Origin: a virus
Direction: 5' to 3' (one strand)
DNA length: 47,616 nt
IMG/VR virus record: IMGVR_UViG_3300036863_000051
Coordinates: 1-47,616 of that record
The notes beneath the pieces were generated by a model. It was not told where the DNA came from and did no database searches. It worked only from the letters and a program-made list of their open reading frames with translations. This document shows, in pieces, positions 4,315-6,826 of this stretch (positions are counted from its first letter, which is position 1; each line of letters opens with the position of its first letter). Made by a program: the position numbers and the translations under genes.

Positions 4315-4803
4315 GTGCCGCCTACCGCAATAACCCCATCCGTCCGATTCTTCCGGCCGGGGACCACCAAGGTGTACTGGGTCCGCGCCATCGTCCTCTA
4401 CACCGCCCCCACCAGGCTCGAGATCAATAGCGGTACGGACTTGAGTGGCGAGATCGCCGAGCTGAGCGGCTGGCAGGTCGCCTCCGACACGATCCCCACC
4501 CCAGACCTCGGCACCAGGTTCGTCCCCAAGATCGCCGGGCGGATCAACGCCGACGATTCCGCCATCAACTTCTACAGTTCGTCCACGGGCTTCACGGACG
4601 CCAGGTCGGTGCTCCCGCGCGACACTACTGGCTTTCTGGTCATAATGGATGGAGGGGACGTAAGCACCACTGGGCGCATGGACGTCTTTCCAGCCACAGT
4701 GACTAGTGTGCCTAAGCTGCGCGCACTGGAAGACCCGGCCCAAGTGAGCGTAACGTTCGCCGTGACTCGGGTGCCTGCGGAGGATTTGGTGATTCCTGTG
4801 TAA
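4315..4803 (+). CDS. Major tail (tube) protein
   Basis: The 162-residue protein starts at GTG 4315 after AAGGAGG. It is beta-rich with the usual tail tube features: an N-terminal strand pair, SGEIAELSGWQVASDTIPTPD, a central INADDSAINFYSSSTG segment and a C-terminal strand LRALEDPAQVSVTFAVTR. Length and place before the tail assembly chaperones fit the siphovirus tail tube subunit. From about 4621 to the stop, codon use changes abruptly (ACT, ACA, GTA, ATA, TTT, CCT) and the gene ends in TAA rather than TGA. The endonuclease cassette starts immediately after. Confidence 0.82.
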   Translation: MPPTAITPSVRFFRPGTTKVYWVRAIVLYTAPTRLEINSGTDLSGEIAELSGWQVASDTIPTPDLGTRFVPKIAGRINADDSAINFYSSSTGFTDARSVLPRDTTGFLVIMDGGDVSTTGRMDVFPATVTSVPKLRALEDPAQVSVTFAVTRVPAEDLVIPV

Positions 4804-4818
4804 TATCCCTTTTCTCCT

Positions 4819-4842
4819 ACTGTCCTGATCTCGTAGTAGAAT
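4819..4842 (+). promoter_or_regulatory. Putative promoter of the HNH gene at 4917
   Basis: ACTGTC at 4819-4824 precedes the -10-like TAGAAT at 4837-4842 with an 18-base start-to-start distance, matching the sites at 812/830 and 16519/16537. The surrounding 4801-4856 segment is AT-rich compared with the rest of the window. Confidence 0.55.
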
Positions 4843-4858
4843 AGTGGTGTACGTAAGT

Positions 4859-4889
4859 GGCGCTCGCGGTGTGTGACCACCCGAGCGCC
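4859..4889 (+). other. Strong stem-loop in the HNH leader
   Basis: GGCGCTCG (4859-4866) pairs with CGAGCGCC (4882-4889). After a single bulged C, GGTG (4868-4871) pairs with CACC (4878-4881) around a six-base loop. The same plan (7-8 bp, bulged C, 4 bp) occurs before the HNH at 16610. Confidence 0.7.
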
Positions 4890-4916
4890 TGGCCGGACCG
4901 CCTGAGGAGGCCCGAC

Positions 4917-5648
4917 GTGAAAGAGGCTACCAAGCGTTGCTCGAAGTGTCGGCAAGACCAGCCGATCACGCTGTTCCGCAAGCGTGCAGATAGGCCGAAT
5001 AGTCTGCTGTCTTGGTGCAGGGACTGCGACCGAGAGTACAACCGCACGTATGTGCGCCCTTACCGGCCATGTACGGTCACCTTGCCCTCGGGGGAGCCTT
5101 GCCCTCGGCCCTATGAGGGAAACGGCTACTGTCACACGCACAACTGGCGTTTCCAGCAGCACGGTGACCCGCAAGCGGACAAGCCTATCGGTCCCTGGCG
5201 CGCTCAGTCGGGCTGTTCCATTCCGGGATGTCCCGGCAAGTTCTACTCCCGCGAATGGTGTGAGCGTCACTACCAGGCGTGGCGAGCGCATGGTGATCCC
5301 CTGAAGCGGATCAATGCACCGGCCGGGCAAGCGGATCATTACACTAGGGAGGGCTATCACCAGATCTCTGTCGATGGTCGGATCGTGCGCGAGCATCGCT
5401 GGGTCATGGAGCAAGCCCTTGGTCGGCCACTGTTATCCGAGGAACATGTCCATCACAAGAACGGCATCAAGGATGACAACCGGCTGGAGAACCTTGAGCT
5501 GTGGGTAGGCTGGGGGAAGCAGCCGAAGGGTCAGCGGGTGGCCGACCTCGTGGCGTTCGTGGTGGAGCGGTACCCAGCGCAGGTGACCAGGATGCTCCGG
5601 GCGCAGCGCCGTGGCGTCAAGCCAACGGAGCATCCCACGCTCTGGTAG
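4917..5648 (+). CDS. HNH endonuclease with N-terminal zinc-binding repeats
   Basis: The start is GTG 4917 after GAGGAGG, giving 243 residues; an upstream in-frame start would lie inside the leader hairpin. The N-terminal half carries several metal-binding modules: CSKCRQD, CRDC, a C-x-H-x-H cluster ([16 protein letters not shown]) and [20 protein letters not shown]. Residues about 145-205 hold the HNH core ([14 protein letters not shown], then [20 protein letters not shown]). Small zinc modules often help homing nucleases bind DNA. It lies between the tail tube gene and a convergent membrane-protein gene, inside the tail operon, so a mobile insertion is the likely explanation. Confidence 0.85.
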
Positions 5649-5651
5649 TGA

Positions 5652-6152
5652 CTACTGGCCGACGGCAGCGCAAGCAGCATTCATGCTCTTGGCCGCGGCG
5701 ATGTAGGCATCGGTGTCCCCGACGGTGATCGCGGCGAGCATGCGCTGTGTTGCAAGGCGGATCTTGGGGATGTTTGACCGTTGGCCGGTATCGTAGAACT
5801 GCTTGGTCTTGTCGCGGATCTCGTTGTCGGTGAGCAGGCTGTTGCCGATGTCGCCCATGACGTTGCGGAAGTGCCCGCAGGACAACTGCGTCGAGGCGTC
5901 CGCTTCCGGCGTGGTCGGCTTGGGCGCGTCGGTGCTGACTGGAGTCTCGACCTGGACGGGTGCGCTGGTCACCTCGGGCGTTTGCGTAGCGGTGCTGGTA
6001 TCGCTGTTGCCATCGACGAGACTAGAGATCCAGCCGATCACGAAGAGCACAGCGAGGACGGCGAGGATGATCCGTCCAACGTGGCGCTTGCGCTTCGGCG
6101 GCGGTGGGGTGGTGAGCGGGCCCCATCCGGGGGTCTGCGTAGACTGACTCAT
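5652..6152 (-). CDS. Membrane-anchored protein with proline/threonine linker (moron candidate)
   Basis: The leftward gene encodes 166 residues from ATG 6152, preceded on its strand by AAGGAGGG. Residues about 20-30 are basic (PPPPKRKRHVGR) and residues about 30-52 form a transmembrane helix (IILAVLAVLFVIGWISSLV). A Thr/Pro-rich spacer of about 40 residues then leads to a C-terminal domain with two cysteines (CGHF and AACAAVG). Topology suggests the C-terminal domain lies outside the membrane. It is antisense to the tail operon and its stop codon is three bases from the HNH stop, so it seems to be cargo of that insertion. It may act during lysogeny, for example in superinfection exclusion, but this is inference. 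Confidence 0.75.
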   Translation of the reverse strand: MSQSTQTPGWGPLTTPPPPKRKRHVGRIILAVLAVLFVIGWISSLVDGNSDTSTATQTPEVTSAPVQVETPVSTDAPKPTTPEADASTQLSCGHFRNVMGDIGNSLLTDNEIRDKTKQFYDTGQRSNIPKIRLATQRMLAAITVGDTDAYIAAAKSMNAACAAVGQ

Positions 6153-6255
6153 GTCGGTCCCTCCTTGGGGGATCGGCCGGGCCCCGGGCTGTCCCAACAG
6201 CTGCGGGGCCGCCCCATGTGGGGCACCGATGAGTATGCGCCTTCCACGCAACCCG

Positions 6256-6279
6256 CGTATAGGCCATTCGGCCTATACG
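6256..6279. promoter_or_regulatory. Perfect 10-4-10 inverted repeat in a divergent intergenic region
   Basis: CGTATAGGCC (6256-6265) and GGCCTATACG (6270-6279) are exact inverted copies around ATTC. It lies between the leftward membrane-protein gene (start 6152) and the rightward tail gene (start 6314), and TATA-like steps occur in both arms. This fits an operator for a dimeric regulator, or a symmetric promoter-operator. No T-tract follows, so a terminator is less likely. Confidence 0.55.
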
Positions 6280-6313
6280 ATGCAGGACCGTTATCCCACG
6301 CGAGGTGGCATAG

Positions 6314-6826
6314 ATGGCGCAGTTCGAGATCAAAGACAGCGGTGATCTCAAGAAACTGAACAAGCAACTCCGCCAGCTGGCCAACGGCAAGGAGATCCGC
6401 AAGGAGCTCACCAGCGGGCTGCGTGACGTGTTGAAGCCGATCGTCCCCGAGGTCCGCGCCGCGTACAAGGCGGCCCCGTCGATGGGCCATGACTCGATGG
6501 CTCGTGGTTCTCGCGGCCGGGCGGACCTGCGGGGGCTGCTGGCCAAGGCAACCCGGGTCGAGGTGAAGCTGACTGGACGGGCGGCAGGTGCCCGCATCCG
6601 AGTGGATGGTCGGCGGCTTCCTGATCGGATGAAGGGCTTGGCGCGGGCATGGGAGGGCGAGGGCCGGCCATGGCGGCACCCGGTCTATGGGGATCGGACC
6701 ACCTGGGTGCAACAGAAGTCACGGAAGACGTTCTACCCGATCGTGCAGCGGCATGAGGCCCAGGCACGCCGGGCGGTCGAGCAGGTCATTGCTCAGGTCA
6801 AAGCGAAGCTGGAGAGAGCGGTATGA
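6314..6826 (+). CDS. HK97 gp10-like head-tail joining / tail protein
   Basis: The 170-residue protein starts at ATG 6314. It opens with a LxxLxxQLRQLA helix and contains KELTSGLRDVLKPIVPEVRAA, then a basic central part and a C-terminal helix (AQARRAVEQVIAQVKAKLE) following a TFYPIVQRH segment. This layout is that of HK97 gp10-family minor tail or neck proteins, which act in tail completion. The gene overlaps the tail chaperone gene by four bases. In a standard order it would directly follow the tail genes at 3862-4803, now separated by the HNH cassette. Confidence 0.7.
   Translation: MAQFEIKDSGDLKKLNKQLRQLANGKEIRKELTSGLRDVLKPIVPEVRAAYKAAPSMGHDSMARGSRGRADLRGLLAKATRVEVKLTGRAAGARIRVDGRRLPDRMKGLARAWEGEGRPWRHPVYGDRTTWVQQKSRKTFYPIVQRHEAQARRAVEQVIAQVKAKLERAV

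Follow-up and report, generated by a model that had tools for sequence, protein, structure and literature searches.

The locus described here raises the question of how the last third of a phage tail tube gene came to be written in other synonymous codons than the rest of the gene, directly ahead of a gene for an HNH endonuclease. A first-pass annotation of this DNA had proposed that the recoded tract was imported with the nuclease. We analysed the whole stretch of 47,616 nucleotides (IMG/VR record IMGVR_UViG_3300036863_000051; hereafter the window), which is from a soil phage, alongside related contigs referred to by L-numbers. The codon switch at the 3' end of the tail tube gene is a real feature. 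The reading that we prefer, with a probability of about 0.6, is intronless homing, in which free-standing HNH genes turn over at a hot-spot behind the tail tube gene and drag pieces of that gene along.

The codon switch and the nuclease gene behind it

The tail tube gene (4315-4803, + strand; 162 aa) is identified by two matches that agree, Pfam Phage_TTP_16 (E 2e-26) and phrog_2491 major tail protein, and it is mosaic, with the nearest relative of each block shifting along the gene. As the first-pass annotation had it, the 3' third is written in other synonymous codons from about position 4620: GC3 is 0.89 up to codon 103 (92/103; nt 4624) and 0.61 after it (36/59; Fisher p 4e-5), the best change-point in the gene falls after codon 103 (permutation p 0.0008), and a 60-codon stretch of the gene, with a GC3 of 0.62, lies in about the lowest 5% of windows over the whole contig. 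The recoded tract (4624-4803, + strand) is saturated at silent sites relative to its relatives, with approximately 92% of residues kept. The recoding that had been placed at 4621-4803 is thus present, but it is not confined to that stretch; codons 1-17 and 35-102 have also diverged silently from relatives, and the recoding of the gene is wider than first described. The TAA stop and the HNH reading frame just downstream were both given correctly, the frame starting 54 bases past the stop. The HNH promoter said to begin 15 bases past the stop was not confirmed; a promoter -10-like TAGAAT box, common to the leaders of related HNH genes, lies at 4837-4842 (+ strand), 34 bases past the stop.

The HNH endonuclease gene as called (4857-5648, + strand; 263 aa) matches phrog_20891 (E 4e-20) and Pfam HNH_3 (PF13392; E 4e-9; 36.4 bits against a curated cut-off of 24.8), the latter over residues 180-215 with the HNH core present, and its product is 97% identical in L003. 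It is free-standing, lying outside any intron or intein between the intact tail tube gene and a phrog_11991 gene. Its true start is probably GTG 4917, because a stable hairpin falls in the stretch of the first 20 called codons and a GGAGG stands ahead of 4917. The leader hairpin, GGCGCTCG-CGGTG..CACC-CGAGCGCC (4859-4889, + strand), is present before HNH genes of several families. Indeed, HNH and EndoVII-type genes of different families share a leader made up of a TAGAAT or TAAAAT box, a AAGTGGCCCCGG...CCGGGGCCTGGCC hairpin with a variable inner part, and then a ribosome site; it is found in the window (4837-4889) and in L002, L003, L004, L007-L011, L014, L016, L075, L204, L205, L207 and L209. 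RNAalifold gives the hairpin 9 pairs, 5 of them with two-sided changes. A strict version of the leader pattern had 12 viral matches, about half of which stand before a nuclease gene, the exceptions including an integrase-like gene (L199), and Rfam returned no known RNA family for the leader near the HNH gene.

The same insertion holds a gene for a small membrane-anchored protein (5655-6152, - strand), which also adjoins the HNH gene in L011 (6297-6791) and L014 (2022-2516); proteins with a similar N-terminus are encoded in L004, L008 and L009. In L004 (4616-4876, - strand; phrog_66) and L010 (~6246-6785, - strand), the insertion region that houses the HNH gene also contains a small excisionase-like HTH gene. 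The next conserved tail-region gene of the window, phrog_11991 (6314-6826, + strand), has a counterpart in L005 that follows the tail tube gene directly, the two genes overlapping with no insert between them; L005 therefore carries the empty version of the site.

A sporadically filled site and its exchanged blocks

The tail tube sample used for comparison comprised 108 usable relatives obtained from scans. HNH or EndoVII-type genes from at least three Pfam families stand directly behind the tail tube gene in the window, L002-L004, L007-L011 and L014, and the GC3 of the last 60 codons in these contigs is 0.60-0.73. The site is empty in L005, L012, L013, L015-L019 and L058; the same measure is 0.92-0.97 in the insert-free L012, L013, L058 and L015-L019. 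The 3' drop in GC3 is larger in the 13 detected HNH carriers than in the 89 others (p 6e-4, uncorrected for kinship, most carriers belonging to one clade). Low-GC3 tracts thus occur mainly, not only, with an HNH gene downstream: L153 and L154 have an HNH gene behind the tail tube gene and no drop, and the drop is weak in L003 and L007. Brief GC3 dips over the first or final ~17 codons often occur in tail tube genes without HNH and were for that reason left out as evidence. An independent case of a codon switch beside an HNH-like gene (phrog_5351, phrog_1271) is L075, whose tail tube gene is only about 51% identical and falls in GC3 from 0.97 to 0.65 at codon 36; a search for close relatives of L075 with and without HNH found none. 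The clade of the window is known from metagenome contigs alone: for isolate relatives, a nucleotide search returned only HNH fragments elsewhere, and a protein search of a phage collection returned none of this clade, only Streptomyces phage ZL12 at 35%.

The clearest cases of exchange are few, with one full block swap among them. Between L011 and L014, identity is 95-100% upstream and as far as nt ~115 of the tail tube gene; it falls to approximately 55-75% over the rest of that gene and the HNH gene, and returns to 98-100% from +1200. Because the divergent block is flanked by 95-100% identical DNA, the tail tube gene from codon ~38 to 162 and the HNH gene have been exchanged as one block that runs to the 3' end of the HNH gene. 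A filled and empty pair exists at a neighbouring site, where L016 has an HNH gene between the tail terminator gene and the tail tube gene and L015 has none; the two are 99.5% identical downstream of the HNH gene and 84-87% identical in the preceding gene, where 16% of bases differ and the codon changes are 39 silent and 11 replacement, a pattern that shows, as we read it, that the L016 HNH gene came together with this upstream gene. In L133 and L135, identity is about 92% as far as nt ~327 of the tail tube gene; the next 2.7 kb, with an EndoVII/HNH gene in them, are 100% identical. In each of these three pairs the nuclease is accompanied by a stretch of the preceding gene that has either changed or is shared, although L133/L135 would equally fit plain recombination. 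L015 and L016 also differ within the tail tube gene itself: codons 103-119 form a 17-codon patch in which 9 codons differ, vs 2 of 145 elsewhere (p 7e-9). Since L019 has the L016 version of this patch without the L016 HNH gene, the patch is an exchange hot spot and not a flank of that gene. Separately, L002 and L008 share a tail tube gene end and a leader, with about 96% identity over the first block past the gene, and what follows is an EndoVII-type nuclease in L002 and an unrelated HNH nuclease in L008; behind a constant leader, one nuclease seems to replace another.

For the tract in the window, the proposal of joint import is partly supported. The GC3 drops linked to HNH genes, L075 and the L011/L014 block speak for it; the comparison of the window with L003, the patchwork of the tract, L006 and L134 speak against it. 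Compared in 60-base blocks, the HNH genes of the window and L003 are 93-100% identical at the DNA level along most of their length, the tail tube 3' ends of the same two contigs are about 70% identical, and their intergenic regions differ, so that a tract inherited with its HNH gene is seen for L011/L014 and L016/L015 but not for window/L003. The tail tube gene of the window is itself a patchwork, nearest to L003 in codons 37-54 (96%), to L008 in codons 55-72 (98%) and to L002 in the last block, and the recoded tract matches no relative at more than 87% in any block. Delivery of a single tract with the present HNH gene is ruled out by the window/L003 comparison together with this patchwork; the tract is a composite that was not delivered intact with that gene. 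Recoded 3' tracts without an adjacent HNH gene, which the first-pass annotation had named as the finding that would refute import, are present in L006 and L134. The L006 tract is 84% identical to that of the HNH-carrying L010, and L006 keeps part of the promoter region that precedes the HNH genes in L009, L010 and L014, a remnant which suggests that L006 lost its HNH gene. The tract of L134 resembles the one in L133/L135, and no HNH gene stands there behind the tail tube gene or behind the next gene. The nuclease and the tract of the window have partly separate histories, and import of the tract with the nuclease is too simple an account.

Silent divergence and what could produce it

Synonymous agreement, corrected for the agreement expected from codon usage and taken over pairs with at least 0.90 amino acid identity, was 0.06 in codons 1-17 of the tail tube gene, 0.39 in codons 18-34, 0.11 in codons 35-102 and 0.10 in codons 103-162, vs 0.42-0.91 in neighbouring genes. 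Silent sites are therefore near saturation over codons 1-17 and 35-162, with the protein kept. Between these stretches lies an island of synonymous conservation (codons 18-34; 4366-4416, + strand), and pairwise breakpoints cluster around its 3' boundary (codons 34-40, nt ~4414-4434), several of the pairs concerned having a member in common. In 9-codon windows the silent difference rises from 0.11-0.18 (codons 19-36) to 0.36-0.51 (codons 37-90) and then to 0.56-0.67 (codons 91-162). The predicted jump in synonymous divergence near 4620 was thus found, but it is the second of two steps and smaller than the one at codon ~36.

It is possible, though we consider it appreciably less probable than homing, that these patterns reflect ordinary phage mosaicism, with the tail tube gene as a frequent crossover point between modules, the HNH gene as passive cargo, and the tract acquired from a lower-GC3 relative by homologous recombination. 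This account would agree with the tail tube breakpoint at nt 308 between L019 and L018, where no HNH gene adjoins, with the mosaic nature of the genes next to the tail tube gene, and with the finding that, among 10 carriers, similarity of the tracts did not follow that of the HNH genes (Mantel r -0.20, p 0.79). However, it does not predict that low-GC3 tracts should be concentrated in HNH carriers, that the exchanged blocks of L011/L014 and L016/L015 should end at or near the 3' end of the HNH gene, or that silent saturation should be limited to the tail tube gene when neighbours at equal protein identity are unsaturated.

We regard as improbable a history without any import, in which the tail tube gene gained silent changes in place, selected for escape from several nucleases with the protein held constant. 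The comparison of the window with L012 fits such a history, with silent and replacement codons at 33:27 in codons 1-102 and 36:3 in codons 103-161 (p 5e-5), as does the recoded L015/L016 patch, set as it is within nearly identical DNA; yet the sharp block edges and the blocks common to relatives are marks of recombination, and multi-base codon swaps (AGC/TCC) in short patches fit conversion better than stepwise mutation. Very unlikely, finally, is a local nucleotide constraint that keeps the 3' end AT-richer as a promoter or unstructured region for expression of the following gene: the only consensus promoter match (9/12; 4619-4646), which lies inside the tract, the GC3 dips in the last ~17 codons of HNH-free tail tube genes such as L088 and L107, and the ability of T4 nuclease promoters to sit towards the 3' end of the preceding gene (PMC2988022) are in its favour, but the tract, at 180 bases, is far above promoter size, the CATAAT box is absent from most carriers, and a functional signal should lower synonymous divergence where the tract shows saturation.

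Probable homing at the tail tube gene

Under intronless homing, the tail tube gene is probably the target of the HNH nucleases behind it. When two related phages infect the same cell, the nuclease of one would cut or nick the 3' part of the other's tail tube gene, and repair from the HNH-carrying phage would copy the HNH gene and part of the tail tube gene into the recipient. The recipient would then have a tail tube gene with different codons, an almost unchanged protein and no target, and repeated rounds by different nucleases, followed by nuclease loss or exchange, could leave a patchwork of synonymously diverged alleles. Three of these steps we infer from sequence comparison: the cut in the tail tube gene, its location, and the protection that recoding would give. 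The overall picture is in keeping with published work: free-standing nucleases cut at a distance of hundreds of bp or more from where they are encoded, with co-conversion of the DNA in between (PMC2988022), and a phage homing endonuclease is blocked by silent recoding of PhiKZ gp178 with 17 silent changes (PMC11620839). A more tentative extension is that several unrelated HNH nucleases aim at one conserved stretch of the gene, for instance codons 103-119, and that phages survive by gathering synonymous versions of it through exchange and selection. If true, this would amount to an arms race at silent sites, with silent diversity peaking in an essential gene, the protein staying the same and neighbouring genes unaffected.

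The mechanism class is already known, and the tail tube locus is a new case with an unusually clear comparative record. As in the free-standing homing systems described previously (PMC2988022), the gene lies between conserved genes, is sporadic in relatives and has its flank exchanged with it, and the target is expected in a conserved neighbour some hundred bp away; here, in contrast, the neighbour encodes the tail tube of actinobacterial-type phages, nucleases from several families take turns at a single site, and cleavage is presumed. HNH endonucleases of lactococcal Skunavirus likewise have recurrent insertion sites beside less conserved core genes, read as a possible result of homing (PMC12724721); those sites are mostly in the early region, whereas ours is in the structural tail region and the divergence is resolved to synonymous blocks within one gene. 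The PhiPA3 endonuclease gp210 attacks an essential gene of a co-infecting relative, and silent recoding of its target protects (PMC11620839), but gp210 is intron-encoded and experimentally proven, unlike the free-standing HNH gene of the window, for which such a role is proposed from sequence. Furthermore, in yeast mitochondria the exons beside mobile introns show an excess of nucleotide diversity near the nuclease element, which would fit co-conversion with donors foreign to the population, and such diversity requires templates of outside origin (PMC5378118); there it concerns mitochondrial introns and SNP gradients, here saturated blocks.

Free-standing homing at a structural gene of a phage would here have left its record in nature, with filled and empty versions of the site and one clean block swap, in a clade whose tail tube silent sites are saturated and whose neighbouring genes are not. 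Homing predicts a target region within the tail tube gene. Trees built from tail tube genes of such phages may mislead, because pieces of the gene have separate histories.

Several further observations were made around the locus. In L015-L019, codons 8-17 of the tail tube gene have very low GC3 (0.11 over codons 10-18) in all five contigs, with or without an upstream HNH gene, and this may reflect translation start. We rejected an 'upstream cassette' by which recoded codons 1-17 would have come in with HNH genes ahead of the tail tube gene, as the same codons occur in L015 and L017-L019 with no HNH gene there; it is also weakened by the low GC3 common in the first ~17 codons of HNH-free tail tube genes. 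The tail terminator gene of L006 (4541-4954) has a GC3 of 0.72, vs 0.84-0.92 in most close relatives, and silent sites saturated relative to the window with a protein 81% identical, and is possibly another recoded gene. The window has a second HNH gene (869-1405; phrog_99), without a homologue in L002-L011 or L014; a recoded flank was considered there and set aside, since no clear recoding marks the 3' end of the gene upstream of it (316-798). A long proline/arginine-rich reading frame (1917-2930) that lies upstream of the head-tail adaptor gene has a GC of ~0.75 and repeated PPWPF motifs.
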